Source of the DNA: Posidonia oceanica | Lineage: Eukaryota; Streptophyta; Magnoliopsida; Alismatales; Posidoniaceae | Length of the DNA stretch: 64,000 nt | Assembly (NCBI GenBank): GCA_037176725.1 | Contig: JAZBRS010000020.1 | Location: 86,870,001 to 86,934,000, forward strand | Direction: 5' to 3' | Part shown: positions 16,401 to 64,000 of the stretch, piece by piece | How positions within the stretch are numbered: the first letter of the stretch is position 1 | Layout: every line of letters begins with the position of its first letter | The notes under the pieces: model-generated | The model's input: the letters and a program-made list of their open reading frames with translations, nothing else | Told to the model about the DNA's origin: nothing | Databases searched by the model: none | Position numbers and translations under genes: made by a program

Positions 16401-17052
16401 GTGTTTTCATTTGTTTAATGCCGTTCGTTTGCTTTGCTTTTATTTTTCCTTAACTTACGAATTTTTCCATGAAATTGTATTTCTACCATGCTGTTTTGTT
16501 TATTTGCTTTCCAGTCTTGCCACCGTTTAAGATTCATTTAATTCTGAATAAAAACCATATGAAATTGCATGAAAAATACGTAGTTTTGCTTATTTGCATA
16601 TTAGTCCTGCTACTGTATAAAAACTTCTATTTTCTTTTAGTTTAAGCCCAGCTCTTTATTTTTATTTACATGTTAGTCCTTTGCAGTTACAGCTTTTTTA
16701 GTTTTATTTATATCCAGCCCAGTTATTTATTTTATTTGCATGTTGATCCTACTCTAGTTCAAATAACATTTCTGTTTCTTATTTTCCAGTCTAGCAACTA
16801 TTCTATTTTGCATCTAAGTCCTGTGGTTGTTAAATGTCATTTAAATATCTGCTTTTACCTTATTACATTGCTTTTTAGTCCTGCTTTTTATTTTATTTGC
16901 AAGTCAGTCCTCTATTCAGTTGATTAATTCATTTAATTTCTTATTTTACCTTACTGCATTGCACTTTTATCCTATCTTTTTTTTATTTTTGCATTTTGGT
17001 CCTCTGCATGCATGCACAACATCATTTAATTGCATTTTTTCCTTATAAAATT

Positions 17053-17350
17053 GCATTCTGGCCCCTACATGATTTTAAATTGCATTTTAGTCCTCTGCAT
17101 GTTTACAAAAATCATTTAATTGCATATTTTTCCATATAAAATTGCATTCTGGCCCCTGCATGATTTTAAATTGCATTTCAGTCCTCTACATGTTTAGAAA
17201 AATCATTTAACTGCATATTTTTCCATATTAAATTGCATTTTAGCCCCTACATGTTTTCAAATTGCATTTCAATCCTCTGCATGTTTAGAAAAATCATTTA
17301 ATTGCATCTTTACCATATAAAATTGCATTTCAGACCCTGCATTTTATTTT
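17053..17350 (+). repeat. About 91-bp tandem repeat in the 5' LTR of B
   Basis: Three full units and a partial one begin TTGCATTCTGGCCCCT.CATG and end ATTTTTCCATATAAAA. The 3' LTR carries four full units at 43349-43735, so the arrays differ by one unit. Confidence 0.6.
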
Positions 17351-18239
17351 AATTGCATTTAGACCCTTAACTTTTCAAAAACTATGCATATAGGCTCTTA
17401 AGTTTTCAAAAACATTGCATTTAGGTCCCTAACTTTTCAAAAACATTGCATATAGGTCCTTAACTTTTCTAAAACATCACACTTAGGTCCTTTGTTGCAT
17501 TTTTGCATGCATTGCACCCATGCATCTCTGCATTTAGCATTTTTGCACACTTTTAAGCACTTTTAGCTCCCATGTATGTGGGAGGACCTGTTCTGCACAC
17601 CTCTAGGACCCCTTTTACACTTAGATCCCTTCTCTTCCCCTAGCCCTTGGGCCTTCTGCCTTGAAGCCTAGATATCTTCTGATCGGACCGCCGGATCTTC
17701 GCAACCAAGCTACCTGGACCACCCTGTGGAGCAGACTTCAATGCTGACCAAGTTTATCTCAGATCAGGCCTCAGATCCCCAAGGTAAGTCCTTCTAAACC
17801 ACTGCACAGCATCTTTGTTTGCATATCATTCGCATTGCATGCATTGTTTTCGCCCCACGTTTTCCATGCATGTAGATTAGGACTTCCTCTTCTTGCCTAT
17901 CAATTCTATCTCCCCTTTTCGCATACTCCTAGTGTTTTTGGGTTGAGTTCTCCTTGGATTCACTACTAATTGTGACCTTCTTCCCCCTTTTCCATGATTC
18001 GATTGCACCGCGAGCTTTAGGCAGTGTGCGAGACACATCGTGGGACACTTTGGTGGGAAACAGTCACAAGATAGTGGTGATCCCTCCACTTGCTTCCTTT
18101 CCCCTTTGTAGGTCTTTACACCTACATTGCGTGGTCCTTAAGCGGTATTCGTTCTTACACTTACACCGCTTGCATCTCCTTACTTCTCTTGCTCTTCCCC
18201 TTTGCATGTTTTTACATCTGCATTGCATGGTTTTTACGA

Positions 18240-22914: not shown

Positions 22915-24996
22915 ATCCCCTGTCCATCTCTTAGGGCGGCCCTAGTTAGGATCCCCTGTACACCTTTTAGGCAGACCTCAGCCAACCCCTGCCTTCCCTC
23001 CCCAACAACCTTACCTTTCTCCCCAATATCCAGTAGGCCCCTTGCAGCCCCTCCTATGCTCACAGCACGTGCTCCTGTGGTTATTGATTTAACTCAGGAC
23101 ACCCATCGCATACCCTACAGCTACGTCATAGAAATGTGTGCAGAAGTAATGCGATCGGGGAGGGTCTATAGACCCCCAGCACCGGCAGTTAGGCCAAACT
23201 ATCCAGAACCTGCTATGCCCCCACCCTCTAGCCAACCCATAGCAGACCAAGCCTTTAGCCAACCTGTAGCAGGCCAAACCTCTGCCCAACCTATAGCAAG
23301 CCAGGCCTATAGCCAATCCCTTGTAACTGTCCCTTTAAAGCTTGCCGCCAAAGCCACCCCTCCTACTGCCAAGAAGAACCAACCTAAGGCTGACATTACC
23401 TCTCAACTTAAGAAGTTAGAGCCGACATTTCCATTTGGGACCTGATACATACCTCTACCAAACACCGCGAAGCTTTTCTTTGTGTGTTCCAAGCCGCCCG
23501 TGTGTCCCAGTCTATTGAGCCCTCAACCTTGGAAAGCATGGTAGGGATGATTGCGGAGCCTCAAATCATCTCTTTTACTAGTGATGAACTGCCTCCGGCA
23601 GGGATTAATCACAACCAACCCTTGTTTGTCTCGGTTCAGTTCAAAAACTTTCGCATTCCTCCCACGCTGGTTGATAACAAGTCAGGCCTTAATGTCTGCC
23701 CTTTGCGTACTGCAACAAAGCTCGGATTCAAAGCCAAGGATATCACACCAACTATAAAAGGAATGACAGCTTTTGACAATACCCACCATGACACTCTAGG
23801 GATCCTAATTATTCCTCTTGCCATTGGCCCGGTTGTATTCGATGTAGAATTCTATGTCGTCGACTTGAAGCCAAATTTTAACTTCCTGCTTGGGCGCCCT
23901 TGGCTCCACAAGCATCAAGTCCTTCCCTCGACCCTCCATCGCATGATAAAGTACCGCTGCGGCGATGATGTCATTGTCGTCATGGCGGAGAACTTTGAGA
24001 AGGAGCGGATCAAGGCAGTCTCCCCCGTCTCTTCACAAACCATTCCTTTTGACCCTAAAACCTCCGATGCTTTGTATCGTGTTAATCGGTGTGAGCTGGT
24101 TAACTTCATTCCTCATCTTGAACGCGTCAACTCCTTGGCCGTTCACAATAACCCCTTTCGAATGGTCAAGAATGTATGTCACAGATGGGGTTACGTTAAG
24201 GGTACACCGCTCGGGCGTCACGGCCAGGGGATCGCAGAGCCGATCGTAGCAGTGGAGCGGAGGAAATCAGAAGGCCTCGGTTACGAGCCCAAGCCCAACG
24301 AAGATGACTGCTTTCAACTGAAGAATCAGAAGACGGTCATCCCCAGGGACATCACTAACTTCACCAGTGCAGGTATTCTAGGATCAATTGATGGTCAAGC
24401 CGCGATGTCGGCAAAAGATTGGGTCTGCATTGAGGACTACTACTCGGATGAGGAGCAGTCTGGCACAGTAGAGGCAGTCCCAACTGGTGGCAAAGCTCTG
24501 ATCAGCACGGAGGCACCTTGGTCGGTTTGTTTGGCCCTACCTTCAACAGATACAACAGTCAACTTAGCAGGCCCTGTGGCAGCACTGACAAGCTTTCACA
24601 TTTCTGCAGCCACATCAGTATTACAAGCACAAGCAGCAGCGGCAACTCAGAAGTCAGGGACACCCCTTCAGGCACAATCAGCCAGTCAACCTACGGTCGC
24701 AGTCGCATTAGTACCGCTGTCACCCTCTCAGGAGGGACAGTCAGTCAATTCAGTCAGCAGTGCGACTCGGCCCACTTCAGTAGCTGCATCACAGAAAATG
24801 GAGCTGGTGCCGTCTGCTACACATCTTCCTGTCGCAAAATAGCGACCCTCGTGGTAGACCCCCATGGTGTCAAAGGCCGCACCCTCACTGTTACAACTAG
24901 ATGCAGAGGTCCAGTCGAGCAACACAGCCTCCCAACCATTGGGTCCTCAGAAGAGCACCACTGCCTACCCTCCAACTACAGCAGTAACCTTGGCAG
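22915..24996 (+). pseudogene. Protease and linker of B
   Basis: The frame continues from gag to about 23415, where one base is missing relative to A, and then runs 23484-24842. Landmarks: VIDLTQDTHRIPYSY (23080); the pre-protease helix region DIS.WDLIH; the active-site region LVDNKSGLNVCPLRT (Asp at 23673), where A has DNGSG and many Tat elements have DNGS rather than DTG; the flap side GMTAFDNTHHDTLG; and LLGRPWLHKHQV. A G-patch-like GTPLGRHGQGIAEP follows at about 24200, and acidic EDYYSDEEQSG at 24430. The Gly of the active site is Lys here. A stop at 24840 is shared with A (50121). The linker is then cut at 24996 by element E. Confidence 0.8.
24992..24996 (+). repeat. Left target-site duplication of E
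   Basis: GGCAG stands directly before E and GGCAA directly after it (30645-30649), agreeing in 4 of 5 bases. Confidence 0.6.
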
Positions 24997-39722: not shown

Positions 39723-39735
39723 AAGGAGGGGCATC
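39723..39735 (+). other. Polypurine tract of B
   Basis: AAGGAGGGGCATC directly before TGTAGACACC of the 3' LTR; this is the usual Tat form of the plus-strand primer. Confidence 0.75.
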
Positions 39736-42700
39736 TGTAGACACCTCATTTTGACAGGCTGAATCAGTGGAATCCTTCTGGTGGCTTCTGAACCCAAACC
39801 TAAACCCAAAACCACATCCTTCTCTTCAATTCAAACCCAAAACCAAACCAAGAATCACACCCATCTTTCTAACCCAAAAACCATCCAAAAACTATAGGAA
39901 AATCCACCCTTCCTAATCTGGAAAATCCTCCAAAAAACCCTTAGAATTTCAAACCAAAACCACTCCCAAAAACCCTAGAAAACCTAGGTAAATCCCCCTT
40001 TCTTTTCTACACCCAAACCCTTCCAAAACCTTCCAAAGTCCCACTTCAAATCCTAGGTTAAATACTAGAAACCCTAGGTCACACACTCACCCAATCCCAC
40101 CTCCATTTCCAAGCCTCTATCCCTCCTCATCTCTCCAAATTATCCTTTTCTCTCTCCAAAATTATTCTTTTCTCTCTCCTCTCTATCCTCCATCTTATTC
40201 TCCTTCTTTTCCTTCCCTTCTCTCTCCTTTTCTTGCTTGGCAGTGGGCCCACCTTGTGCATCTTTCCTTCCCGTATTTTACCTGTATTTTTATTTTATTT
40301 TTATCCTATCTCTTGATTTTCTAATATTTAATTTCTTTCCTCCCCTCTCTTTCTTCTTTCTTTCTCCATTTTTTTCTTTTCTTCTTCCTCTCCTTTCCCT
40401 TTTCCTTTCTTCTACTAAACCTTTAAAACTCTAATTAAAAAGAAAAGGAAAACAAAAGAGAAACAAACCAAAACCTTAAAAAGAAATAATTAAAAAAACT
40501 TGGACAAACAATTAAGAGAAAAACCCAACTAAAACCAACTAAAAAACTAAGAATGCAATCTAAAAAATACAAAACAAACAAGAAGAAAATACTATTAAAA
40601 ACAAACAAAACAAAAATATAATCAAAACAAACAAAAAGCAAGAACCCTTTTAAAAAGTAACAAAAATCAAAAACCCTAGGAAAGAACAAACAATTAAAAA
40701 ACCCTAGGATAAGTAATTGAAAGAAAACAAGTAACAAATCTAAAGAAACAATTAAAACTTAAAACAATTTAAAAGACTTAATTAAAAAGAAAAAGGAGGA
40801 AAAACTTAACAAGACAAACTTAACTTGAAAACAATTAAAAAACTTAACAAACATTTAAAACAAACTTAAAAACAATTTAAAGAAAACTTAAGAAAAACCA
40901 TAAAAACTAAAATCAAAACTAAAACCCCTCCTAACCCTAATTAATTAATTAAAAAAAACAATCCTTTAAAAGCTAATTAAAAATCTCAACTTAAAACAAC
41001 TACTTTAAAATATTTCCAAATCTTTTTATTTCATTTTAATTTTTTTCTTCCTTTTCTTCCTTTCCTTTTTTCCTTTCTTCCCCATCTCCTTCCTTTTCTT
41101 TCTTTTTTTTTCTTTTCCTTTTTTGGTCCGGCCCGGCCCACTACACCTCCTCCCCTCCTTTCCTTCTTTTCTTTTTTCTTTCTTTCTTTCTTTTCCCGCG
41201 GCCCACCCTGCTCCACCTGCCTGCCTCATCCTCCTTCCCTCCTTTCCTTCTTCTTCCTTCTTCTTCTGCTTCTTCTTCTCTCCTGCGAATCCCAACTGCA
41301 ACAGCTTCCCCCCCTCCTTTTAAAATCCAAAATCTCCCCCTCCATCACCTCTTGCAACAGAACCCTCTCCTCTCTCACCCTCTCTCAGCTTTCCCATCTC
41401 CCTCTTCGGCGGCATTAATGCCAGTCGCCTTGCCGGTCGCAGCCATCAACTGTAGTCTCCTCGCCCGGTGGAATTTGAATCCACCAGCACCCATTCCTCC
41501 TCCTTGTTAAAACCAGCCCTTCAGCATTCCTTCCCCACCTTTTGCCATCTGAGAGAGCTAGAGAGAGCGTGAGAGCCAGCAGAATTCTCCTCCTTCTTCC
41601 CTTTGAAATTTAGCATCTTCCCTTTCCCAACAGACCCCTCCACAGACTTTCAAACCATCCCAAATCCTTCCCCAAACTTCACCCAAAATCCCAGCAATCC
41701 ATCTCCACTCTTCCACGACCAGAACCAACCCAAACTCCCCCCGTACACTTGAAATTCCTCACCAGGACCCAACTCCACCTTCCTTCAGAATTCCCAGCTT
41801 TCCAAACCCCAAAACTCTCCCCAAATCTTCCCAGCAACTCAACGAAACCCCAACATTCCAGACCCCCCAGCCTTCAGTCCAGCACCCCACCACAGCCTGA
41901 ACCATCCACAATAAATAGCTACACCAGATTCTGTCCAAAATCCACTTCATCAGCCAACTTCCACTACAGCACTCCACTGCCCAATTCAAGCCTCCACACA
42001 CCTTCACCAGACACCCAGCTACCCATTGGTGCCCTCCAATCAGCCCGAGGAGCAACATTTCACTCCCCCCACCTCCGGTAGTCTCTGTGAAACCCAAAAG
42101 AGCCAACTTCTTCCTCCGGTCTGCAAGCTTGTACCTGAGCATCCAAGAAGCTCCGGAGCGACGCCTGGAGTGGATCGCGACCATCGTGAGCCGCCAGGAA
42201 CGCCTGCACCAGCTGGATCACCACCACCAAGCTCTACTGAAGCCACTGACGTTGGGGGAGCGACTCAGCCGCCGAAACAGGTATCTCTTCGCCCCCGTAG
42301 CTTAGATTTCTTCCCTTTCTGCTTCCCGACCCAATAGATTAGGGTTCTGGTCTGTGTTGCGCGAAGTCGTCGCCGTCGAGGACCTGTCTTCTCCGGCGAG
42401 CTTCTGCGCGCAGACCTCGCTCCAGGCCCGCTCGTCCCTTGCCGTCAATCCTCTGAGCATCGTGGAGCTTCCAGGAGTCCGTCTCTGTCCTCCATTTCCG
42501 CCAAGGATGCTTCCCTCCTCCGGTTTGCTTCCAGAGCTTCTGCATAGCTCCGCTACCTTCTCCGGTCCGCTCCAAGCTCTGTCATGGTCCATCGACATGC
42601 CTCCGGCCTCCGGGAGCATCTAGCGCAGCTTCCCAGCCCTCCAAAGCCGTCCGATCACCCTTCTTCTCCAGCCAGCAGCTCTGCAAACATTTCGCTACAG

Positions 42701-45478
42701 TGTTTTCATTTGTTTAATGTCGTTCATTTGCTTTGCTTTTATTTTTCCTTAACTTATGAATTTTTCCATGAAATTGCATTTCTACCTTGCTGTTTTGTTT
42801 ATTTGCTTTCTAGTCCTGCCACCGTTTAAGATTCATTTAATTCTGAATAAAAACCATATGAAATTGCATGAAAAATACGTAGTTTTGCTTATTTGCATGT
42901 TAGTCCTGCTGCTGTATAAAAACTTCTGTTTTCTTTTAGTTTAAGCCCAGCTCTTTATTTTTATTTACTTGTTAGTCCTCTGTAGTTACAGCTTTTTTAG
43001 TTTTATTTATTTCCAGCCCAGTTATTTATTTTATTTGCATGTTGATCCTGCTCTAGTTCAAATAACTTTTCTATTTCTTATTTTCCAGTCCAGCAGCTAT
43101 TCTATTTTGCATCTAAGTCATGTGGTTGTTAAATGTCATTTAAATATCTGCTTTTACCTTATTACATTGCTTTTAGTCCTGCTTTTTATTTTATTTGCAA
43201 GTCAGTCCTCTGTTCAGTTGATTAATTCATTTAATTTCTTATTTTACCTTACTGCATTGCAGTTTTATCCTATCTTTTTTTTATTTTTGCATTTTGGTCC
43301 TCTGCATGCATGCACAGCATCATTTAAATGCATTTTTTCCTTATAAAATTGCATTCTTGCCCCTGCATGATTTTAAATTGCATTTTAGTCCTCTACATGT
43401 TTACAAAAATCATTTAACTGCATATTTTTCCATATAAAATTGCATTCTGGCCCCTGCATGATTTTAAATTGCATTTTAGTCCTCTACATGTTTACAAAAA
43501 TCATTTAACTGCATATTTTTCATATAAAATTGCATTCTGGCCCTTGCATGATTTTAAATTGCATTTCATTCCTCTACATGTTTAGAAAAATCATTTAACT
43601 GCATATTTTTCCATATTAAATTGCATTTTAGCCCCTACATGTTTTCAAATTGCATTTCAGTCCTCTGCATGTTTAGAAAAATCATTTAATTGCATCTTTA
43701 CCATATAAAATTGCATTTCAGACCCTACATTTTATTTTAATTGCATTTAGACCCTTAACTTTTCAAAAACTATGCATATAGGCTCTTAAGTTTTCAAAAA
43801 TATTGCATTTAGGTCCCTAACTTTTCAAAAACATTGCATATAGGTCCTTAACTTTTCTAAAACATCACACTTAGGTCCTTTGTTGCATTTTTACAGGCAT
43901 TGCACTCATACATCTCTGCATTTAGCATTTTTGCACACTTTTAAGCACTTTTAGCTCCCATGTCTGTGGGAGGACCTATTCTGTACACCCCTAGGACTCC
44001 TTTTACACTTAGATCCCTTCTCTTCCCTAGCTCTTGGGCTTTCTGCCTTGAAGCCTGGATATCTTCTGATCGGACCGCCGGATCTTCGCAACCAAGCTAC
44101 CTGGACCACCCTGGTGGAGCAGACTTCAATGCTGACCAAGTTTATCTCAGAACAGGCCTCAGATCCCCAAGGTAAGTCCTTCTGAACCACTGCACAGCAT
44201 CTTTGTTTGCATATCATTCGCATTGCATGCATTGTTTTCGCCTCGCATTTTCCATGCCTGTAGATTAGGACTTCCTCTTCTTGCCTATCAATTCTATCTC
44301 CCCTTTTCGCGTACTCCTAGTGTTTTTGGGTTGAGTTCTCCTTGGATTCACTACTAATTGCGACCTTCTTCCCCCTTTTCCACGATTCGATTGCACCGTG
44401 AGCTTTTGTGCGAGACACATCGTGGGACACTTTGGTGGGAAAAAGTCACAGGATAGTGGTGATCCCTCCACTTGCTTTCTTTCTCCTTTGTAGGTCTTTA
44501 CACCTGCATTGCGTTGTCCTTAAGCGGTGTTCGTTCTTTCACTTACACCGCTTACATCTCCTTACTTCTCTTGCTCTTCCCCTTTGCATGTTTTTACATC
44601 TACATTGCATGGCTTTTACGATGTTTTGTTTCGCTTGTTTCTTGCATCGATTTACGTGCCCGCTTTGTTTCTTGCACCGTTTTGCGTGTCGATCTTTGTT
44701 TCTTGCACTGTTTTGCATGCCTGTTTTGTTTCTTGTGCTGTTTTACATGTCGATCTTCGTTTCTTGCACCGTTTTGCGTGTTTGCTATTGTTTTCTCTTG
44801 CTTGTCGCTTGCATTGCCTGGCTTTACCGTTGTTTTATTTTATCGCCTGCATTTGCATTTAGGGCAGTGATGCTTACTACTTGGAGTTCTCACGGACCAG
44901 GGTTCGCCCGGTTCAGAACACAGACAGCGCTACTGAGAACTTAGATAGCACGTTTAATTCCTTGCACGCATTTCCATCACTTAGAGCACACCTTTGAGCA
45001 TTTAATTAGGCATTCATGGTACTTAGGCATTCAAAGTATGCATTTCCCTGCGTATGTGAGCGTAAGCCTAGGAAGACCGATTCTCGGGCGTGTCGGGGGT
45101 GCCTAACACCTTCCCTGCACGTAACAAGAGTCTTTGCCCTTTCTTATGGCCCGTAATGACCATATTGCCCTTATCCTAGGCATGAGTCACATCATTTGCA
45201 TCTCATTTCTTTTGCATTGCATTGCATTGCATCTTTTGCTTGGTTTTGCGTGTTTATTCACGCATTGCCCTAGTTTTCCTTGTCTTTCGATTTAATAGAC
45301 ACGGTGGTGACTCTGATTTGTCTTATCTTCTTCTTTTCTTCCCTTTTTTCCCTTTTTTAAGTGTTTTCGAGTTAAGTCTTCCTTCTCGAACACAGCCGCT
45401 AATAGTGAGCCTGATTCTGATCGGTGCATGTGAGCTTTGGCAGTGTGCATGGACGATCTGAACACCGAGATTACTACA
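39736..45478 (+). repeat. 3' LTR of B
   Basis: This 5743-bp LTR matches 13441-19119 throughout and ends ATTACTACA. The 64-bp length excess is about what one extra ~91-bp unit (43349-43735) and one missing 29-bp unit (44630-44795) would give. It is followed by element A's leader, not by a primer site, so it is a true 3' LTR and not the start of another copy. Single-base differences to the 5' LTR are frequent, so the insertion is not recent. Confidence 0.9.
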
Positions 45479-48297: not shown

Positions 48298-50493
48298 GCC
48301 AGGCCCCAACTAAAGCCATTACAGCCTCCCTAGCAACATCCCTTACCTCTCCACCAACCAGCCAATACCTCGGCAGCCCCTCTCGAGCTCACAGCTCGTG
48401 CTGCCCTAGTGGTCAACCTGACCAGGGATACCCACCACATTCCATACGACTACGCTGCAGAAATGTGTGTGGACGTCACGCGATCAGGGAGGGTTTACAG
48501 ACCTGCAGCCCTAGTAGCCAGGCCTAACCCCCCGGAACCTACTCCACCAGCAGGCCAACCAGCACCAGCAGGCCAACTTGTGCCACCAAGCCAACCACCA
48601 GTAGGCCAATCCCCTGGTCCCCCCATAGTAGAACCCTCTACCAGAGCCACTACCTCCACCTCCAAAAAAGACCAGCCTTCAGTTGACATTACGGCCCAAC
48701 TGAAAAAAGTCAAGGCTGACATCTCTATTTGGGACCTAATACATTCATCCCGCGAACACTGTGAGGCTTTCCTCCGTGTGTTCCAGGCCGCCCATGTGTC
48801 CCAATCCATCAAGCCTACAACCCTGGAGAATATGGTGGGTATGATCACGGGGCCGCAGGTCATCTCTTTCTCGAGCGATAAGTTGCCTCTAGCGGGGACT
48901 AACCACAATCAGCCCCTATTTATCATGGTGCAGTTCAAAAGTTTCTACATTCCCCTCTCGCTGGTTGACAATGGGTCAGGCCTTAACATCTGTCCCCTGC
49001 GTACAACACTCAAGCTCAGATTCAAAGCCAAGGACATCACGCCAGCTGTGAAGGGAATGACCTCTTTTGACAATACGCATCATGACTCGTTGGGGATCCT
49101 GGTTATTCCTCTTTCTATTGGCCCGGTCGTATTCGATGTAGAATTCTACATTGTCGACTTAGAGCCCTCTTTTAATCTCCTGCTTGGGCGCCCTTGCCTA
49201 CACAAGCATCAAGTGATCCCCTCGACCCTCCACCGCATGATCAAGTTCCGCTACGGCGACGACATTATCGTTGTCATGGCGGAAAATTTTGATAAGGAGC
49301 GGATCAAGGCGGTCTCTTTTGTCTCCCAGCAGATTGTCCAATTTGACCCTAAGCCCTCAGATGTCATGTTCCGGGTTAACCGGTTTGAGCCGATTAACTG
49401 TATCCCTATTCTTGAACGCGTCAGCTCTCTGGCCGTTCATTGCAGCCCCTCCTGGATGGTCGAGAACATTTGCCGCAGATGGGGCTATGCGAAGGGAACG
49501 CCACTTGGGCGACACGGCCAAGGGATCACCGAGCCAGTTGCAGTTGAGGAGAGAAGAGATTTTGAAGGTCAGGGGTACGAATGGTAGTCCCGCGATGGTG
49601 AGCGCCTGCACTCGAGGAATCGGAAGCTCGTGATCCCTCGGGACCTCACTAACTTTGTCAGTGTAGGTGTTCTTGACCCGAAGACGAGCCTAGCCTCAGC
49701 CCAGCCAGTACTGTGCCAGAGCCCCCCACTACGACAGAGGAATGGGTCTACATAGAAGACTACTATTCTGATGAGGAGCAGTCTGGCACAGTAGAAGCAG
49801 CCTGGGCCAACAAGGAGCTCCAATCCAACCCTACAACCTCCCGGTCAGTTTGTCTGGCCCTTCCCTCTACTGATACAGTGGCAGATTCAGCAAGCTTTGT
49901 GTCAGGGATGACAGTTTCTCCCCCTTCTACAGCTTCATCAGTGCCTTTGACAGCCACATCGACAGCTCCAGAGTCTAGAGCACACCTTCAAGCACTAGCC
50001 ACCTGTCCATTCGCAGCCGCAGCCACACCAACACAGAGGTCACTATCTCCGGCGGCACAGTCAATCGAATCAGGTGACATCGGGACTCGACCCGCCTCAT
50101 CAGCAGCACCACAAGCAAAGTAGGTGGCTCCATCAGCCATACAGCCGTCAGCTTTAGCAGATCCAACCTTGTGGTGGGCCCTCGCGGTCGGTATAGTGAG
50201 ACAACCACCATCACTCATGGGTGCCGGCACTTTGTCCCCCAGCACAACCATCCAGCCGTCGGACCTCTTGAAGAGTGCCTCTGCCTCCCCTCCAGCCACA
50301 GCACTAACCCTGTCGGCGCAACAGCCAGTCGCAGCAATGGTCGACCTATTTGCATCTCTGATCGCCACAGTACCGCGAACGACCGCGCCAAGAGATCAGC
50401 CAACCAGCAACAGAGCAGATGCCCTAAGCAGTGGTATGTCTGGCAGCCAGAGCAGACCCCGTAGGCAAAGGAATTGCTGGGTAGGACTCTGAA
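48298..50493 (+). pseudogene. Protease and linker of A
   Basis: The gag frame continues to 49587 with one TAG near 48331. Landmarks: LTRDTHHIPYDYAAE, DISIWDLIHSSREH (about 48718), active-site region LVDNGSGLNICPLRT (Asp at 48967), LLGRPCLHKHQV, and a G-patch-like GTPLGRHGQGITEP at about 49495. After TAG at 49585 a frameshift leads to EWVYIEDYYSDEEQSG (49740) and a Ser/Thr/Ala-rich linker, with TAG at 50121 as in B (24840). The DNG active site in place of DTG is, from memory, common in this lineage. Confidence 0.8.
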
Positions 50494-53198: not shown

Positions 53199-53410
53199 TG
53201 TAGATACCCCATTTTGGCACTCCCTTCATGTTAGGATAGTCTCTTGCATTAGGTCGCTCTTAGAAGTCCTCCACCCATTCTTGAATGTCTCACTTGAGCC
53301 AAATGTTCCCCTCAAAGTCCAAAATGCTATCCTTATCTAAGCCCCAAATGTTGGCAACCTGAGTGTTCTTCACGTCCTGACTAAATTTGGAAGTTAAACT
53401 GATTAAGGGT

Positions 53411-53726
53411 GTTGTCCGCTGGCTTCTCAGCGTACAACGTTGGCCGCTGGTTCTCCAGTGGCTAACATTGGCCGCTGGTTTTCCAGCATCCAACGTGGCA
53501 ACCCAGTCAGCCCAAAGCTTTTCTTATTTGGCCTAATCCAAAAATCATGTTTTTGCCTTCTTTGGAACCTGTTGACCAGTCAAAGCCATCAAGGCTGAGT
53601 TTAATCACACTTAAAGACTCCTTAATTGGAGAATCTTCTGTGATCCTGGCAGTTATGCCTTGGAGGTCGTTATACGCGGGGACTCTCACTTATAACATTA
53701 TACGTTGGTTTTCCAGCATATAACAC
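53411..53726 (+). repeat. Hairpin modules in the LTR of C
   Basis: 53411-53495 is a run of three imperfect inverted repeats of the form GTTGGCCGC, about 11 nt, GC..CCAAC joined through AACGTT or AACATT. 53668-53726 is a pair of the form GTTATACGC..TATAAC. They are the same design as the modules in A's LTR. Confidence 0.6.
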
Positions 53727-54437
53727 TTCTGAAACAGGAAACTCTACTGATTTGGCATTTGTATCCTTTTTTTGTTCCTCCCCTGCTTCTATAAAAGCAA
53801 GGGTACCCCCACAGGATTCAAGGCTGGAATTTTGAGAGAGAAAAGTAGTGGTGGAATTTTTGGAACTCACATGCTCTCTTGAGATTAAAAATCTTAGAAA
53901 AGTGAGGTCCTTAAGAATTGAAAGAGGGAAGAGAGATTTGGAAAGGAGGAGAGTCTTTGAAAAGCTTGAGTGTCCCTTTGTCGTTGTTGGCTTCATGTCA
54001 ACACAGTTTGCACCTTGTGCATAGACAGAGGGGGCTCTATTTCATTTGTTTTTCTTTTCATTTCTGATATCACGTGTTTAATTCCATAGCATAATCAAGC
54101 ATTTTATTTTCAAGTTCATATATTGTTTTAGCTAGGCATACATCTCTATTAGTTGCAACCGGGGGGATCAAACCCCTCGAGTACGTATCTCACTACGCTT
54201 TCTTTATTTTCTTTTCTACTAATCCTAGATAAGTTACTGCACATATTGATCCATCTTTGTATTGTTTTGTTTCTTTTGCTTTGCTAACATTTGTCATACA
54301 AGGAGGAAGAAGGAAGAAAGAGCTCACCAAGCACGGGCACCCTTGGGCAACGCTGGCGTTGTCCCAAGGTAGCTGAACCCGCAACTACATCACATCTCCC
54401 CAAGGCGTCTCGAGGGCCGGCGAAAGCGAACCGAGAG

Positions 54438-54447
54438 TGGCGATCAC
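54438..54447 (+). other. Primer-site-like copy inside the LTR of C
   Basis: TGGCGATCAC repeats the first ten bases of the real primer site, 146 nt upstream of it. Confidence 0.5.
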
Positions 54448-54583
54448 ACCGATTCTATCACACGTAGAGTGACGGAGTTGGATACAAAAAGGGGACCCCG
54501 AGAAAGAGAAGATAGAGCAAGTAAAAGGGCAAAACAAGCGGCCTCCCTCTCTTTCCTCCTCCCAAAACCCCATATCCACAGTC

Positions 54584-54600: not shown

Positions 54601-56146
54601 TGACTAAAAGTGCCCCTGTGCAAGGTGAGTAAGCCTTTCTTCCTTCTTCCTCCTCCATTATTGACATTCTTAGTTTAGTTTTAATTTCTTAATTTTTTCC
54701 ATAAGTTTTAAGGTAGCGGTGAAATTCCTCGTAGTGTTTTGAGGCACCGTGACCCTTTTTGTTTTTTTTCACGTCCAAATAAACTGAAATCACCTCCCCC
54801 TTTTCTTTGGATTCTCGGGAGTGGAGGTGGTTTGTAAAAGCCACTGTCTTTCTGAAAAGAAAAACTCTGTCATTACGTTATACGCGTGATCTGGCGCATC
54901 TAACATTAGACGCTGCAATATCCGCGTCTAACGACTACTGAACAGAAACCTTCTGTTTTAAATTTTCTCTTATTTTTCTTTTCATAACTGGCCCAAGGAC
55001 TGAGGTGTGAGGTGATCGGCTTTGCCGTAGGGACCAGAACTTCAGTTTCTTTGAGTACTTTGCAAAAAAATAACAAAAAATCAAATCTTTTTATATGACT
55101 TGCATGTCCCTCGTTGGGAACTAATTGCTTGTGTCATTTCTTAGGTTATACAAGTCACCGTCTAGGTCCCAAGCACCTTTGTTGCAAAGGGCTTAGGAAA
55201 GGTACTTGTATTGTCATTGTCTTTCACTAGGGGCCCTCCTTCTCCCTTGGCCTTTTGTGAAAGATAATTAGAACCTCAAGCTTTGACTTGTATTCTTCCC
55301 TCCCCCTTTCGGTGGTTTGTTTATTTCATTGTTGTGCGTGAGCGACCCGATCAATCCCGAGTACGCTGGGCTCTACCTCTATGGGGTACGGACCTAAGTA
55401 TATTCGAGCTCCCCCTACCATCCTCAAGAGTTGAGGTAGGGGGTAGTACCAATAATATTCACCCATTTTGTGAGGAGCCCTAGAAATTCCAATAAAGAAG
55501 CCATACCTAAGCCTTATGGAACCCAGAGAGCTACAGCAGGTTTAAAGTACTAATCTCAAAGCGAAAACAAAAATTAAAACCATAAATCGCTGTTTGAAAG
55601 TGTTTCTGTGCAGTTCTTTGAAACAAGGCGTTAGCCGCTGAGATCCCTGCGTTTAACGTTATATGCAGCAGGTTCCGCGTCTAACGCATTCTTTGTGTGG
55701 CTGTTATATTTTAGCTCCTTTGTGATTTGTTTGGCAAGGGAAGACATTGGAAAAAACCCATAACGGTGACAGTTCTGTTTTATTTTTTACCTCTTTTAGG
55801 AATCTGTATTAAAATTTCCCAAGTTCTTATAATTTCCTTTTCTTTGCACTTATAAATCCTTCAAAAAGAAAAGCCAAAAAAAAAGAAGAAAAGAAAAATC
55901 ATATAAAAAAAGAAAAATTAAAAGAAAAAGAGAGCAAAAAAAATCAGAAAAAAAAAGAAAGAAAAAACAGAAAACAAAAAAAAGGAAAAAGGAGAGAAAA
56001 GAAAAGCTAAAAAGAAAAGACAGGAGAAGAATAGAGGAATACTGTTAAGGGTGTTGTACGCCTGAAATAGTGTGTCCAACGTTATATGCCTTACTCTGAG
56101 GCGTATTACGCCCTGAAGCCAATTCTCATTCTCAAAAGCTGCAGGA
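54601..56146 (+). other. Leader of C
   Basis: 1.55 kb noncoding leader. It has a donor-like CAAG|GTGAGTAAG at 54625 and an acceptor-like ACCTCTTTTAG ending at 55799, which would give a 1175-bp intron. Paired-hairpin modules lie at 54877-54932, 55629-55685 and 56053-56109, and a purine-rich tract at 55860-56035. No gene. Confidence 0.6.
54877..56109 (+). repeat. Paired-hairpin modules in the leader of C
   Basis: Three modules of about 56 bp: 54877 (second half TTAGACGC, 10 nt, GCGTCTAA, perfect 8-bp stem), 55629 and 56053. Each is two inverted repeats joined by AACGTT or AACATT, as in A's LTR. Spacing here is 752 and 424 bp. Confidence 0.65.
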
Positions 56147-57997
56147 ATGATGAACCAAATCCATGAAGCTGAGCAGCCAGAAAGAGAGAGGTTAGACTCA
56201 GCAAGTACCTTGGGAGAGGAGCCCACAATCTACCACCCAATCACCGGAGAAGCCTTAGATCCGGACTCAATCCAATACAAAGCCATGTACCAGTTCTTAA
56301 ACGAAGAGACATCAGTCCCAATGAGGCCATGTCAGAACAACCTCCAGCAGCCACCCCATCTCGGTGAAGGACAACGAAGGCCAATTGTGGACCATACCCC
56401 TGAAGATCTATACCAGGGACAAAATGGCAACCCACTGCCAGACACAAACCACCCAGGTCAGGGCACAGCGCTCAACGGAGCTTATAACTCAAGGGCCAAC
56501 CCCTTGATTCAGGAACACAATTACATGCCACATGGTGAGTACAAGGAAGGAGTCTATCCAAGTCATCATCTCCAACCACCTATGGCAGGCAATCAGCCTA
56601 GGCCAGATCATCACTACCATCAAGCATCTCCGCCGCGATATGAGCAGGTCGCACCTCAACACTTCTGCAACAGCTACCTCCATCAGCAGCAGAACCATCC
56701 ATCCTTCAATTCACATGTCCCGACCCCATCAGCTGGGATGACAAATTTGGATGAGATGAGAAAAATGCTCAGTGCATTAGGGGTACATACCCAGGCTCCG
56801 GCAAACTTTGACATGAGCCGGTTTCCCCCGTTCAAATTACCTCCAAGCTTCAAGTACCCGAAGACTCCCAAGTTCAACGGAACCACTAACCCACTTAGTC
56901 ACCTAGTGCGGTTCCAAATGGAGTCAGCCCCCTACTTTCATGATTTGGGGCTTGTGATACACCTGTTCTTCTACTCACTCGAAGGAGAGCCCATGGATTG
57001 GTTTCTCACTCTCTCCAAGGAAGACCTCAGCAGCTTTGATAAAATGAGAGAGAGCTTCCTCACAAAATACCAGCACAAGATAGACCCCAAGCCAACCTTC
57101 CACAAGCTAAGCAAGGAGGTCATGAAGCAAGGCGAAAGCTGGGTGACATTCGCCAACAGATGGCGGGAAATGGCGGCCAGATCAGGGCTGACCATTCCGG
57201 AGAGACAGGTGGTCCAGACCCTCATTGCAAACACCATTGGACCAATGAAGAAGGGGCTCGTAAATGCCTACTTTCCTAATGTGACGGCCTTATATGAAGT
57301 GGCGGCCTTCGTTAAAGAAAATTTGCATGAATTCATGGAGGAGCCAAAGAAGAGCCGGAAAACACAGGTAGTAGAGGACGTGACCGGAGTCGTCAACAAG
57401 ATGGACTCCACACCTAGGCCATTCGAACAAAGGGCTATACTAGCTTCACAGCAGCCAACCTGGAGCCACCCTCCTCCTCAGCAACAACAAGCATGGAGCC
57501 ACCCTCCTCCTCAGCAACAGCAAGCATGGAATAACCCTCCTCCTCAGCAACAGCAAGCATGGAGCCACCCTCCTCTCCAACAACAGCAAGCACGAAGCCG
57601 CCCACCTCAGCAACAGCAGGCATGGAATAACCCTCCCCCTCAGTAGCAAATCTACCCTATGTGGAATGCTCCCTGGCAGCAATGGACTAGGGACAATCAA
57701 AATGGCCAGGCCAACAACACTGGGAACGGGAGCGGTTATCACAATGTTCCTCCTCCATTGCCACGCAAAAAGGGAAGAAGAGACCATTACCCTCCTCTAC
57801 CAGTCACACTGGTAGATATATTCATAGAGCTAGAGGAGGCAAAAGTAGTCGAATTCCCGCTGGCTAGGCCTAAATTGCCAAATTGTGACCAGAGCAAATA
57901 CTGCCCGTTCCATAGAATACATGGTCACCACATCAATGATTGCTGGACTTTCAGAGACATAGTCTATGACATGGTAGAGGCAGATGTATTTGAATAG
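56147..57997 (+). pseudogene. gag of C
   Basis: Starts MMNQIHEAEQPERER. The N-terminal third is rich in Pro, His and Gln. The capsid core runs from FPPFKLPPSFKYPKTPKF (about 56822) through EPMDWFLTL, ESFLTKYQHK and TFANRWREMAARSGL. Then a Pro/Gln repeat of about 11 residues (AWSHPPPQQQQ type, six copies, 57461-57645) with one TAG at 57644 where Gln is expected. The frame continues through a basic segment to a CHHC zinc knuckle CPFHRIHGHHINDC (57901-57942). TAG at 57995 ends it; the same frame, with another TAG at 58022, goes on to the protease region. Open for 499 codons, so better kept than in A and B. Confidence 0.85.
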
Positions 57998-58084: not shown

Positions 58085-58999
58085 ATGGCATTCCAGGACG
58101 AGAAGCTCCCTGATCCGCTAAAGGACTGGGACAACCATGTGATACCAGAAGCAAACTGGGACAGCCAAGCTGAGCATTGGAAAGTAATTTCGGATGATGA
58201 TTGGGACAGCGAGGCAGATGAGGGACTAACAATGAAGGAGCTCCTTAGCCAGTTCAACCTCACAGTAGTAGTGGAGGAACCACAAGAAGATACAGAAGAA
58301 GAAAGCCATGTTCAAAAAGCCAATCAGCAATTTGAACGAGAAAATATAGTCTTCAAAGATTCGGAGCTTCCGCCCCCACATAAGCAAGAATTGCCGCTTG
58401 TCATCACAGTGGGCATCAATGATCATGTGCTGCAAGGAGTATTGGTTGACACTGGAGCAAGCCGAAGCCTCAGTTCTCTCTCCACACTCCAGAGCTTAGG
58501 GCTAAATGAGGGTGAGCTGGATAGAACTCCATTTATGTGCATTGGGTTTGATCAGAAGGAGAAATTGGCACTAGGGACAATGCCCATGGAAATCACAGTC
58601 GGTCCTTTGACCAGTATCACTTCGGTGATCATTATGAAGGAGAAAGTCCTGGAGCCACTCATCCTAGGGAGGTCTTGGCTAGCGGAGGTCGGGGCTGTAG
58701 CATCTTCAGTTCATCAAATGCTAAAATTCAAATACCAAGGAGCGGTTGTCAACATTCCAGCTAATCGATCGGGGATTCTATGCACATTCAAGATGCCAGA
58801 GCCACAAATTGCAACCCTTCGGGAAGAGGAGGAGTCACAACGTCTGCCATGGAGAAAATCACTGCTGTGGGATCCCAAGCCGCTGTCGCCACCGGTCTCC
58901 CCAATCTTCAAGGCAGCTAGGCCACCATCAAGTCAATTGCCGGCCCTCAACACTTCGGTATTCCGAAGCACTACTACTCTGTCATCTCCAATCTTCTGA
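58085..58999 (+). pseudogene. First retropepsin-like domain of C
   Basis: In frame with gag. An acidic segment (SDDDWDSEADEG) leads to an aspartic protease fold: VITVGINDHVLQGVLVDTG with active-site DTGAS at residue 122 (Asp codon 58448), LGTMPMEITVGPL, then LILGRSWLAEVGAVAS and HQMLKFKYQG. The motif order (DTG, flap part, ILGR-W) is that of a full single retropepsin chain, which acts as a dimer. It is open to a TGA at 58997, after which the frame stays open nearly to the second domain. A and B have no equivalent. It could be an active second protease, a decayed duplicate, or a domain for substrate binding; both catalytic residues are kept. Confidence 0.75.
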
Positions 59000-59170
59000 G
59001 TGCCAACAAAGCAACAAGCTAGGACCACAAAGCCACCAGAGCTTGGCGGATCTATACAGAAGGAGTCCATCTTTGCTTGGCCGTTCAAGAAGGGAGCATC
59101 CAACAACCCATGCAAAGGAAATGAGGCTGCTGCGCCCATTACCAGAGGAGGGAGGCTGTCAAACTGAATC

Positions 59171-59926
59171 ATGCCACCAGCAAAGCAAACAGAGCCGATC
59201 AGACCTGAAGTAGGACCCAGGTCGGCGGAATATGACATCCTAGAGCAAGTAAAGAAGATGCAAGCCAGGATCTTGATCTACGACGTCATAAACAGCTCAA
59301 ATCAACACTGGAAAGCTCTACTAGAAGTGCTAGAGAAGGCCCAAGTTGCCCCAGACATGCCAGCAGAGGAACTCCATGTTATAGCTACAGCGGCCTTTGT
59401 AGAACCAATCATTACCTTCACTGATAGCGAGTTGGCACCAATAGAGAGGAGAAAAGCTCCATTGAATGTAACCATTTCTATAAACGATCACTTAATTTCT
59501 GAAGTGCTCATAGATACTGGTGCATCAATGAACATTTGCTCGCTGAATACAATACGAGCCTTGGGCGTAAATGAGGCCTCCTTAACCCCCATTCATATGA
59601 CGATTGCCGGGTATGATGACAGCAAAAGAAAAGCGCACGGCAAGTGGACCACAAAGATAGGGATAGGACCAGCTCAGGTTCTAACCCAACTAATCGTCAT
59701 AGACATCAATGTACCATATCAGATCATCCTGGGGAGACAATGGCTAGACAGTTTAAAAGGAGTATCATCTCCTCGGCACCAATGCTTCAAATTCCCTCAC
59801 GATGGGAAAATCATCAAGATAGCAGGAGACATACCAGGCCAAGAAGCGGAGGCAAATGTGATATACCTGCCGTACCAGTTCAGTGTGCGAGAAAAGCCGA
59901 CTTACGCTGAAAGGGCAAGAATGTAG
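59171..59926 (+). pseudogene. Second retropepsin domain of C (equivalent of A/B protease)
   Basis: Same frame as the first domain, entered after a TGA at 59168. The pre-protease part (VKKMQARILIYDVINSS, KALLEVLEKAQV) aligns with A's VKADISIWDLIHSS, so this is the domain at the usual place. The fold shows VTISINDHLISEVLIDTG with DTGAS at residue 115 (Asp codon 59513), YDDSKRKAHGKW, and IILGRQWLDSLKGVSS. The two DTG sites are 355 codons apart. TAG at 59924 ends the ORF. Its job would be to cut the gag-pol polyprotein. Confidence 0.8.
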
Positions 59927-60016: not shown

Positions 60017-60325
60017 ATGTGGGATGGGATCATGAGGAGAATTGATTACAAGAAAGGCCAGAGCTTAGGCCCAGAAGGAAAGGGAATGAAGGAGCCAGTA
60101 AAGGCCTATGACAAAGAAGGAAGGGGAGGACTCGGTTTCGACCAGTTCCCTGACAGACGACCATTACAGTGGAATCTACAAGGACATTTTACCAGTGTAG
60201 GGATATTCGACTCGAATTCATCCCCCCCTAAGAAATATTATTTTGGCATAATCAACCAAACACACTCTCCAAAGTGCAGAGGACACAGCCGACGTAAACA
60301 TTTTCGGCTTATTCCAAACACTTGA
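60017..60325 (+). pseudogene. G-patch-like segment of C after protease
   Basis: Same frame again (from about 60017): RRIDYKKGQSLGPEGKGMKEPV, KEGRGGLGF, then LQGHFTSVGIF. The glycine spacing resembles a G-patch, a nucleic-acid-binding motif known to follow the protease in some retroelements; A and B have GTPLGRHGQGITEP at the same place. Ends at TGA 60323, with a frame change around 60250. Confidence 0.5.
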
Positions 60326-60326
60326 A

Positions 60327-60845
60327 TTGCCAGCAGAACCTCACGAAGGTCAGACTGCAAGAGAGTTGACAGCAGAGCTTCACAAAGGCCAAACTGTAGC
60401 AGCAGAGCCTCACGAAGGTCAGACTACAGAAGAGTTGCCAGCAGAGCCTCACGAAGGTCAAACTGCAACATCACCGCCACCACTGTTAGGCGCACCGGCC
60501 CCCGAACCTCCTGATCGGCCACCTCTTTCTTCTTCTCCCTCTTCTTCCGGCGCCACCGCTCCCGAACCTCCGGATCGGCCACCTCTTTCTTCTTCTCCCT
60601 CTTCTTCCGGCACTGCCGCTTCCAAGCCTCTGGCTCCTCCAGCTCCGAACATCTCTTCCTCTTTGGAGCAAAGGCCGGGGCAAACTCTACGCAAGTCACA
60701 ACAACTCGTAGACAGGGTCCACCGCCTCACGGCTGATCTCTCTGAAGGTCTGCAACCTCAGAGACCTGAAGTTGACCCCGATCTAGGGGCCGACCATGAG
60801 CTTCTCGAAGATGATGGGAACGTCAACCCTAACGAGCCCGCCTAG
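60327..60845 (+). pseudogene. Repeat-rich linker of C between protease and reverse transcriptase
   Basis: In another frame (preceded by DVNIFGLFQTLELP). It carries an 8-residue repeat AEPHEGQT in four copies (one as AELHKGQT) and then a Pro/Ser repeat PDRPPLSSSPSSSG twice. The last part (SQQLVDRVHRLTADLSEG) is acidic and ordinary. It is probably a flexible linker of the polyprotein; a homologous linker in A and B has other repeats. There is no ATG that clearly belongs to it. Confidence 0.5.
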
Positions 60846-61049
60846 AGAGGCTCCTACCTCTACTGATGGAGGTAACTCTAGGGGCATCCCCCTAGATGCT
60901 GTAAATAAAACTTTGTTTAATTCTGCATTATTTTCATTTCCTAGGAATAAAGGTAATTTACTTTCTATTTTCAATAAGGGAGAGGATCACCATGTTAGTT
61001 CTAGCAGCTCACGGTCAACTTCGACCACCACTTCCAAAACTGTGCACAT

Positions 61050-62216
61050 GTGTCAATACACGGAGGCATTCCTCAGGAGCTGGCTACTGCCAACATGGAC
61101 TTCCTAGCAGAAGAGTTTGACCGGTTTGGGAAGTGTGCAGGAATAGAGACGTATGAGTTGGTTAGCTGCAATGATGAGGAAGAAGATCAAGAGGCTGACT
61201 CAAACCTCCTTAAGCACCTCATGGACAAATATGATGAGCAAACCAAGGCAGCTGAAGAAGAGACCGTGGAGGTCAACCTGGGAACCGCCGAAGAGCCAAA
61301 ACCAATACTCATAAGTGCAAGCCTGAGCCCAAGAGAGCGGGAGGAAATGGTCCAAATCTTGAAAGAATTTGTGGATGTGCTAGCCTTCAAGTACGAGGAT
61401 ATGCCTGGACTACAATCAGCCCTAGTGGAATACCTGCTTCCACTAAACTCTAGAACCAAGCCCGTCAAGCAGAAGCTAAGGCGACTAAGGTCGGAACTCG
61501 CTCTCAAAGTCAAAGAAGAAATTGACAAGCTCCACAAAGCAAAATTCATCAGAGTAGTTGTGTACTTCAGTTGGGTCTCAAATATAGTTCCAGTGGCCAA
61601 AAAAGACGGGAAGGTTCAGGTTTGCATTGACTATCGCAACCTCAACGCCGCCTGTCCCAAGGATGACTTCCCTTTGCCACATATTGACTTGCTAGTGGAC
61701 AATACAGTAGGGTTTGAGATGCTATCTTTCATGGATGGTTTCTCCAGTTACAACTAGATTAAGCTAGCAGAGGAGGACCAAGAGAAGACGTCGTTCATCA
61801 CACCATGAGGGACATACTGCTACGTAGTCATGCCATTCGGTCTCAAGAATGCCGGCGCAACATATCAGAGAGCGATGATGGCCATCTTCCACGACATGAT
61901 GCACGATTGCATGAAAGTGTACGTTGACGGTATCTTGGTCAAATCAAGAACAAGGGAGGCACACTTTGAGGCATTAAGAAGGGTACTGAGTAGAGCAAGG
62001 CAATATCTGCTGAAAATGAACCCAAAGAAATGTGTGTTTGGGGTAACTGCCAGGAAACTACTGGGCTTCATCATCAGCAAAAGAGGAATCGAGGTGGACC
62101 CACAGAAGGCCAAAGCAATAGCACAGATGCCGCCACCCCGAAACATCAAGGAACTCAGGGGACTTATCGGCCGTTTACAGTTCATCTGGAGATTCATCTC
62201 ACAGCATGCAGATTGA
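61050..62216 (+). pseudogene. Reverse transcriptase of C
   Basis: The frame is the same as that of the linker, with TAG-rich sequence at 60843-61030 between them. Landmarks: KPILISASLSPREREEM, VKQKLRRLRSELALKVK, KKDGKVQVCIDYRNLNAACP (about 61600), MLSFMDGFSSYN then TAG at 61755 (Gln of YNQI in other copies, stop also in A), TGA at 61806 (Trp expected), VMPFGLKNAGATYQRAMM, and the catalytic box reading YVDG at 61920-61931, so the second Asp is lost. CVFGVTARKLLGFIIS and GLIGRLQFIWRFIS follow. TGA at 62214 probably replaces Arg. Confidence 0.85.
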
Positions 62217-63248
62217 TGTAAGCCGTTTTATGAGTTACTAAAGGGAGGAAGGGAATTCACCTGGGATGAGAAATGCCAGAAAGCTTTTGATGAACTCAAA
62301 GCATATCTCATGACTCCCCCAGTCTTGTCAACGCCTATGTCAGGGAAGCCCTTACTACTCTATGTGGTAGTCACTACATCATCAATAGGGGTAGTGCTAT
62401 CTCAACATGATGAGGATGGGAAGAAGGAAAAAGCTATCTACTATTTGAGTAGAACTTTCCTGGGTTACGAAGAGAAGTATACAATCATAGAAAAGCACTG
62501 CTTGGCCTTGGTATGGGCATCTCAAAAGTTGAGACACTACTTCCTAGCCCATAAAGTCTGTTACATTGCCAAGATGGACCCAATCAAATATATGTTCGAG
62601 AAACCAGCCCTCTCTGGAAGGTTGGCAAGGTGGCAACTCCTCACTGAGTTCGACTTGCAATATGTGTCCCAGAAGATGGTCAAGGGGCAAGCCATTGCAG
62701 ATCACCTGGCAGAACTACCAATAGAAGATTATCAACCAGTCCGAACAGACTTCCCCGATGAGGAGATACTGGAAATACAAGCCACCGAGTCTCCCATTCA
62801 ACAATGGACTCTCTACTTTGATGGAGCACTCAACAGACAAGGGGCAGGCATCGGAGTAGCACTTCTCACTCCGGAAGAAGTTCTCATTCCTCGAGCTGTA
62901 CAGCTAAACTTTGCCGTAAATACCAACAATGTTGCAGAATACGAGGCCTTGATCCTCGGATTACGCCTAGCACTGGAGCTAGGGGCAAAGCGGTTGAAAC
63001 TCATTGGGGACTCCCAATTGGTTCTAGGACAAATTCTGAACAAATATAGAACCCTCAACCCAAGACTAGAAGAGTACAAAGGCATTGCACGCCTCCTATT
63101 GGCGCAGTTTCAGCAAGTGGTGTTTGTCCATAGCCTCCGGAGTCATAACCTACTAGCAGATGCTCTCGCTTCACTAGCTTCCTCAATCGAGTTCCCCATC
63201 AATATCCGGGAGCAAACAATAATGGTTCAGCAGCACGGGATACCTTGA
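62217..63248 (+). pseudogene. RNase H and second RNase H of C
   Basis: Same frame, open from 62217 to TGA at 63246. First RNase H: LLLYVVVTTSSIGVVLSQHD, KAIYYLSRTFLGYEEKY, EKHCLALVWASQKLRHYF. Then KGQAIADHLAELPIEDYQP, and the second, archaeal-like RNase H with LYFDGALNRQGAGIG (about 62812), NNVAEYEALILGLRLA, GDSQLVLGQI and NLLADALASLAS, with all four acidic residues. This is the longest intact part of pol in C. Confidence 0.85.
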
Positions 63249-64000
63249 CTTGACTGAGCCATGGGCCGTGGAGCTTAGACAAAAAGCTGGGGAATCAAGG
63301 GTAGGTATGTTTGAAGTTTGCTACAACATAGAGGATGACAGGAACGCATGGTTCTTTGACATCCAGAACTACATTCAAGACGGGATCTTCCTCGACTACG
63401 CGACTTCACAAGACAAAGAGGTAGTTCGAAGGATGGCTACAAGATACTTCATGAGAGCCAAGGTCCTTTTCAAAAGGTCTTTCAGCGGAATAGAGCTGCG
63501 CTGTGTCACTTATGAGGAGGTTGAAGTTATCATCGGAGAAATGCATGAGGGCATATGTGGGGGAGACATCAGTTCTTAATTCATGGCAAAAATGATACTG
63601 CGCAGAGGGTACTACTGGCCCACAATGGAGGCAAATTGCGCAAACAAGGTGAGAAGGTGCAAGCCATGCCAGATCCATGCAGACAGAATACATGCGCCAA
63701 CATCAGAGTTGAATCTGACTCAAGCGGTGTGGCCTTCTCCATGTGGGCATTTGATGTCGTGGGACCATTCGACACTGAAAAGCAGAATAGGTTCATCCTC
63801 ACAGCCACTGAGTACTTCACTAAATGGGCTGAAGCGGAGGTGTTCACTGAAATCAAAGCTTCAAATCTTTGCAAGTTCGTGCGGAAGAATATCCTCTCAA
63901 GGTTCGGGATCCCAAAGAAATTGGTAGCAGACAATGGCGCAATCTTCGTATCCCAAGACTTCAAAAGGCTCTGTAAGAAGTTTAAGATCGATTTGCATCA
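63249..64000 (+). pseudogene. Integrase of C, N-terminal part, runs off the window
   Basis: A frameshift near 63246 leads to WAVELRQKAGESRVGM and the zinc-binding part: MHEGICGGDISS, TAA at 63577, then MILRRGYYWPTMEANC and CKPCQIHADR. One base is missing near 63735, after which the catalytic core goes on in another frame: FSMWAFDVVGPFDT (first Asp, about 63753), EYFTKWAEAE, FGIPKKLVADNGAIF (second Asp). The window ends before the catalytic Glu. Confidence 0.8.

Follow-up and report, generated by a model that had tools for sequence, protein, structure and literature searches.

Two retropepsin domains in element C

The window analysed here, a 64,000-nucleotide stretch of the Posidonia oceanica genome (assembly GCA_037176725.1, contig JAZBRS010000020.1, positions 86,870,001 to 86,934,000 of the forward strand), contains a long terminal repeat (LTR) retrotransposon, element C, together with two neighbouring elements, A and B. 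Element C encodes two protease domains, PR1 and PR2, in the same reading frame between gag and the reverse transcriptase (RT) region, and this tandem retropepsin is present in nearly all examined copies of the many-copy, Tat-type family to which C belongs. The features of this part of the element, in window coordinates, are the following.

56117..57643, + strand: gag frame, with a Retrotrans_gag-like match at 56963-57217
57647..57994, + strand: gag frame continued, including a Cys/His-rich stretch; lies upstream of PR1
58319..58774, + strand: PR1, first retropepsin domain (Asp codon 58448, ILGR 58661)
58775..59235, + strand: linker from PR1 to the PR2 extension, containing TGA stops at 58997 and 59165
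59236..59365, + strand: N-terminal helical extension of PR2, common to A and B, with helices in the model
59366..59839, + strand: PR2, second retropepsin domain (Asp codon 59513, ILGR 59726)
60017..60322, + strand: G-patch frame downstream of PR2 (Pfam PF01585, E 1.9e-6, 28.1 bits, cut-off 22)

Both domains read DTGAS at their Asp codons, followed by ILGR and, two residues after it, by a W. An earlier note on this DNA had reported these motifs, the two Asp positions and the common frame, and all of them proved exact; the frame shared by the two domains is not a single open one in C, since it is interrupted by the two TGA codons of the linker. Each domain by itself clears the cut-off of the Pfam profile gag-asp_proteas (28.2) narrowly, with E 1.6e-6 and 29.1 bits for PR1 and E 1.7e-6 and 29.0 bits for PR2; a profile search of both domains was a check that the note had proposed.

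A sequence search of solved structures gave no significant relative of PR1 or PR2 (best E 0.65 and 0.19, respectively), a retroviral-like aspartic protease being among the PR2 matches at E 0.78, and fold comparison was therefore used. The predicted fold is that of a retropepsin for both domains (mean predicted local distance difference test score, pLDDT, 84.6 for PR1 and 80.1 for PR2), in models built from 27-row alignments that each included relatives of the other domain. The earlier note had allowed that PR1 might show no protease fold; the confident model obtained for it, compared by Foldseek and VIA-align, instead found its best matches in Ddi1. Ddi1 domains are the closest solved structures for PR2 as well, and retroviral proteases were also matched. 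The retroviral-protease-like domain of Ddi1 is cellular, occurs as one domain per chain and forms a homodimer. As judged by profile, motif and predicted fold, PR1 and PR2 are retropepsin domains. Relatives of PR1 or PR2 were not found in viral contigs, nor relatives of PR2 in genome contigs.

Copies of the family, decay and selection

The genome searched comprises 2.96 Gb in 80 contigs. Copies of the family were collected with the DNA of the linker and PR2 (59000-59900), a query that leaves PR1 outside, and 40 of the 5,255 first-look candidates were scored, C included; a domain was counted at a coverage of at least 70%. Among the 39 copies other than C, which lie on many contigs, PR2 was found in all and PR1 in 38, and the sole copy without PR1 has no gag match in its retrieved stretch either. 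Copies with a single domain, which the earlier note had named as evidence against its proposal, therefore amount to one in this set, picked as it was by linker and PR2. The piece of the gag continuation at 57860-57994 is likewise covered to at least 70% in 35 of the 39. A second set was selected by RT (40 scored of 5,059 candidates); the eight loci read from it, C included, start at the equivalent of about 59600 in the window, with PR1 outside, and carry the second half of PR2 in seven cases and the G-patch piece in all eight.

Element C is a decayed copy. In addition to the two stops in the linker it has three between gag and PR1, for a total of five in frame from gag to PR2, and others follow shortly after PR2. 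The codons corresponding to the linker stops are stops in only 3/39 and 5/39 of the other copies, and a protein from another contig, P0004, is stop-free from the tail of PR1 across the linker to the start of the PR2 piece (64% identity over 149 amino acids). The rarity of the linker stops and the open frame of P0004 together indicate that the family had PR1 and PR2 in one frame. A protease frame ending throughout the family at the stops 59924, 59942 and 60014 was considered and rejected, as this appearance is an artefact of projecting the copies onto the frame of C; in the alignment the frame break after PR2 is C's own, with one other copy similar there.

Selection was measured as the mean pairwise ratio of nonsynonymous to synonymous substitution (dN/dS, Nei-Gojobori) over the copies plus C, with ranges from a codon bootstrap. 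This comparison, which the earlier note had proposed for each domain, gave 0.29 for PR1 (39 rows, 0.21-0.39) and 0.21 for PR2 (40 rows, 0.15-0.29), with overlapping intervals, next to 0.34 for gag (37 rows, 0.28-0.42), 0.32 for the 5' piece of RT (36 rows) and, over 40 rows each, 0.34 for the extension of PR2 (0.18-0.64) and 0.45 for the linker (0.32-0.59). Read in the other two forward frames, the same alignments gave 0.73 and 0.99 for PR1, 0.70 and 1.30 for PR2, 0.67 and 0.82 for gag, and 0.54 and 0.94 for RT. One reverse frame gave 0.35 for PR1 and 0.31 for PR2, which is expected because third codon positions coincide in it. In both domains, differences at third positions are about two to three times as frequent as those at first and second positions. 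From the ratios, the frame controls and the excess at third positions it follows that PR1 was under purifying selection about as strong as that on gag and RT before the copies decayed, and selection on PR2 was of similar strength.

The active-site motifs themselves have survived in most copies, as the earlier note supposed: DTG is kept by PR1 in 31/37 readable copies, by PR2 in 34/39 and by both in 26/39, and the ILGR of PR1 is kept in 33/39. Two relatives of PR1 from other contigs, P0001 and P0003 (54% and 64% core identity), also retain DTGAS.

Origin and possible working of the pair

The earlier note regarded PR1 as only distantly similar to PR2, a description that does not hold, since the two domains of C are 38% identical over 159 amino acids (E 2e-34, single comparison) and their lineages are nearest to each other in the best tree. 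To the proteases of A and B each of them is only 24-27% identical, and among the lineages shown PR1 reaches at most 32% identity to any other than PR2, and PR2 at most 35%. PR1 forms a clade with the PR1-type proteins P0001-P0003, from other contigs and with 54-64% core identity (100/99 in the Shimodaira-Hasegawa-like approximate likelihood ratio test, SH-aLRT, and the bootstrap), and PR2 forms one with P0005-P0008 (99.6/100); the two clades are sisters in the best tree. The N-terminal helical extension is found in PR2, A, B and other relatives and is missing from PR1. As the earlier note stated, PR2 aligns with the proteases of A and B including this extension (residues 30-209 with A, 23-221 with B). 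The simplest history would be that the catalytic part was duplicated in tandem long ago, PR2 being the ancestral member. The age and the duplication are thus favoured in the form in which they had first been proposed, without being proven.

From these data we infer that a tandem duplication probably left two retained retropepsin subunits, both of them catalytic and both processing the polyprotein. A tandem copy of the ancestral retropepsin domain, lacking the N-terminal helical extension, would have arisen between gag and pol and produced the order gag - PR1 - linker - PR2 - G-patch, followed by RT, RNase H, a second RNase H and integrase, and PR1 and PR2 would then have served as catalytic subunits acting on the polyprotein.

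Several observations weigh against this account. The copy set was selected by similarity to the linker and PR2, and its members are related, so that the dN/dS values are pairwise averages with no branch test. Many copies are broken: PR1 is free of stops and frame breaks in 15/38, the linker in 9/39 and PR2 in 19/39, and the whole stretch from PR1 to PR2 is open in one of 39. For the linker the true frame is barely distinct, its ratio of 0.45 standing beside 0.52 and 0.75 in the other forward frames. Conservation of DTGAS within the family is not above that of an average stretch (34th and 31st percentile for PR1 and PR2), and one PR1 relative, P0002 (56% core identity), has DTR. The sisterhood of PR1 and PR2 is weakly supported (45.8/74), and four alternative placements, 10-12 log-likelihood units worse, are not rejected (approximately unbiased, AU, test, p 0.07-0.19).

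Known retropepsins are dimers of one domain, so that they become active only when two polyproteins come together, and their active site is formed by two subunits that contribute one Asp each. Because PR1 and PR2 each provide such an Asp on one chain, about 200 residues apart, a pairing between them, as a pseudo-heterodimer, would be about as likely as two homodimers. Retention of the Asp in both domains fits either of these arrangements and agrees poorly with a silent scaffold. In the second, PR1 and PR2 would be independent homodimeric proteases without cross-pairing that divide the substrates, for example Gag and Pol sites; this has a reasonable though less than even chance. Each domain has a full predicted retropepsin fold and has kept its own Asp, and a divergence to 38% identity would be enough for altered specificity, but their position on one chain should promote PR1-PR2 pairing.

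That pairing, within or across chains, would make the two domains an obligate asymmetric protease, a tentative reading in which a retroelement would have gone once more through the duplication from which pepsin is proposed to have arisen, with halves that can still be seen to resemble each other and that both belong to the polyprotein. Pepsin-type (A1) proteases, for which an origin by duplication and fusion has been suggested (PMC2761423), resemble C in having two retropepsin-like halves on one chain with one Asp in each. PR1 and PR2 differ from them in being still 38% identical and about 200 residues apart, and neither domain, scanned separately, gave a match to the Pfam A1 (Asp) profile up to E 10. 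For the possible beginnings of two-lobed pepsins the protease pair of C would offer a testable analogue, and an element whose single chain carries two diverged, selected retropepsins could evade the dimer rule or split the substrates between them.

A different origin would have PR1 captured from another retroelement lineage, so that PR1 and PR2 were separate acquisitions, and is considered unlikely. Trees that place PR1 with Tat or with the P0035 group, or PR2 with either, are not rejected (AU p 0.08, 0.07, 0.19 and 0.17), and both domains are far from those of A and B even though the RTs are 54-61% identical. The tree that joins PR1 and PR2 is nevertheless the best by the margin given above, and the similarity of each domain to the other exceeds that to any other lineage shown.

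Still more doubtful is the proposal that PR1 is a kept non-catalytic domain, a scaffold or a gag-binding module, by analogy with the dual RNase H of Tat elements and retroviruses. Those elements resemble C in carrying a second copy of an enzyme domain beside the first in the polyprotein, and the report on them describes the second domain as acquired and the older one as having lost its catalytic residues and come to resemble a tether (PMC5348765). The missing helical extension of PR1, its slightly faster evolution (with overlapping intervals) and the DTR of P0002 would fit such a role. In contrast to the precedent, PR1 and PR2 both keep catalytic residues in most copies, as do the PR1 relatives P0001 and P0003, and the pair probably arose by internal duplication. 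Since DTG and ILGR have survived in PR1, a purely non-catalytic role is less probable for it, and the scaffold appears the least likely of the three arrangements.

The last alternative, an artefact of C in the form of a nested insertion or a one-off rearrangement, has next to no probability and is refuted as an explanation of the double protease, as the five in-frame stops upstream of PR2 and those just after it are outweighed by the same order in 38/39 further copies on many contigs and by the open linker of P0004.

The selected tandem retropepsin of this Tat-type family is thus real and amounts to one protease more than the Tat arrangement. The Tat lineage (Ogre and relatives) shares with C its large size and the order gag - protease - RT - RNase H - second RNase H - integrase, and a protease with an N-terminal extension occurs in A, B and several database relatives; the lineage is described with one PROT, whereas C has two. 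Betaretroviral (type D) viruses also have a protease followed by a G-patch, but only one protease. In a screen of plant LTR elements for unusual domains, type D retroviral polyproteins are said to carry a G-patch, and the protease category was filtered out as common (PMC9289625). The REXdb report gives the Ty3/gypsy order as GAG-PROT-RT-RH-INT and notes that wherever a domain type occurred more than once in an element, the element was discarded as likely incorrectly predicted (PMC6317226). Neither study would therefore have reported a second protease, and among the titles listed for the phrases searched in open-licence PubMed Central text none dealt with a second or tandem retropepsin. As repeated-domain elements were filtered from this set, the main reference for plants, reports of such architectures may be too few.

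Structure and age of element C, and elements A and B

The remaining features of C are as follows.

53199 to beyond the window, + strand: element C, a complete LTR retrotransposon of 24,405 bp in total
53199..54580, + strand: 5' LTR (TG...CA), with its partner at L049:2222-3603 (C19:86946222-86947603)
61005..62213, + strand: RT region, 54-61% identical to A and B by tblastn, with RVT_1 in 61809-62213 (Pfam PF00078, E 2.2e-16)
62217..63245, + strand: RNase H (RT_RNaseH_2, RT_RNaseH), then a second RNase H (RVT_3, 62817-63176)
63549..63998, + strand: start of the integrase (rve, Pfam PF00665, E 1e-9), the element continuing past the window

Paired LTRs, TG...CA ends and a target-site duplication, all expected of an LTR retrotransposon, are present in C. 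The LTRs are 1,382 bp each and align without gaps over 1,382/1,382 positions with 37 mismatches (97.3% identity), and the 5-bp target duplication ATGCT stands at both outer flanks. Their Kimura two-parameter (K2P) distance is 0.027 which, with plant substitution rates of 1.3e-8 and 7e-9 per site per year, gives an insertion age of about 1-2 million years.

By its domain order, PROT-RT-RNase H-integrase with a second RNase H (RVT_3), C is classed as a Ty3/gypsy element of Tat type. The Pfam E values of RT_RNaseH_2, RT_RNaseH and RVT_3 are 6.5e-27, 3e-23 and 6.4e-17, and the match of gag to PF03732 (E 1.6e-4, 22.3 bits) lies under the cut-off of 24.1. With its two protease domains C departs from the usual plant Ty3/gypsy architecture, which has one PROT, a feature that does not define Tat.

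More than 11 kb, which may hold extra genes or a nested insertion, separate the integrase frame from the 3' LTR (L048:551-10000 and L049:1-2221); the L048 part contains several open frames, each about 90-170 codons long. Coding tandem repeats occur at the end of gag (57449-57649; 30-33 bp units, Gln/Pro/Trp-rich) and between the G-patch and RT (60331-60608; 60- and 69-bp units).

The G-patch lies just downstream of the protease in all three elements (23412-24839 in A, 48334-49584 in B and 60017-60322 in C). The proteases of A (23412-24080, Asp codon near 23673) and B (48655-49338) read DNKS and DNGS, neither having DTG, and many of their relatives also read DNG, with Asn instead of Thr. Upstream of the gag of B, a unit of about 91 bp is repeated in tandem (43228-43771). 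A 4-kb upstream stretch is common to A and B (13440-17490 and 39735-43816) at 94% identity, despite gag and protease DNA that is only about 70% identical between them, which points to possible exchange between families.
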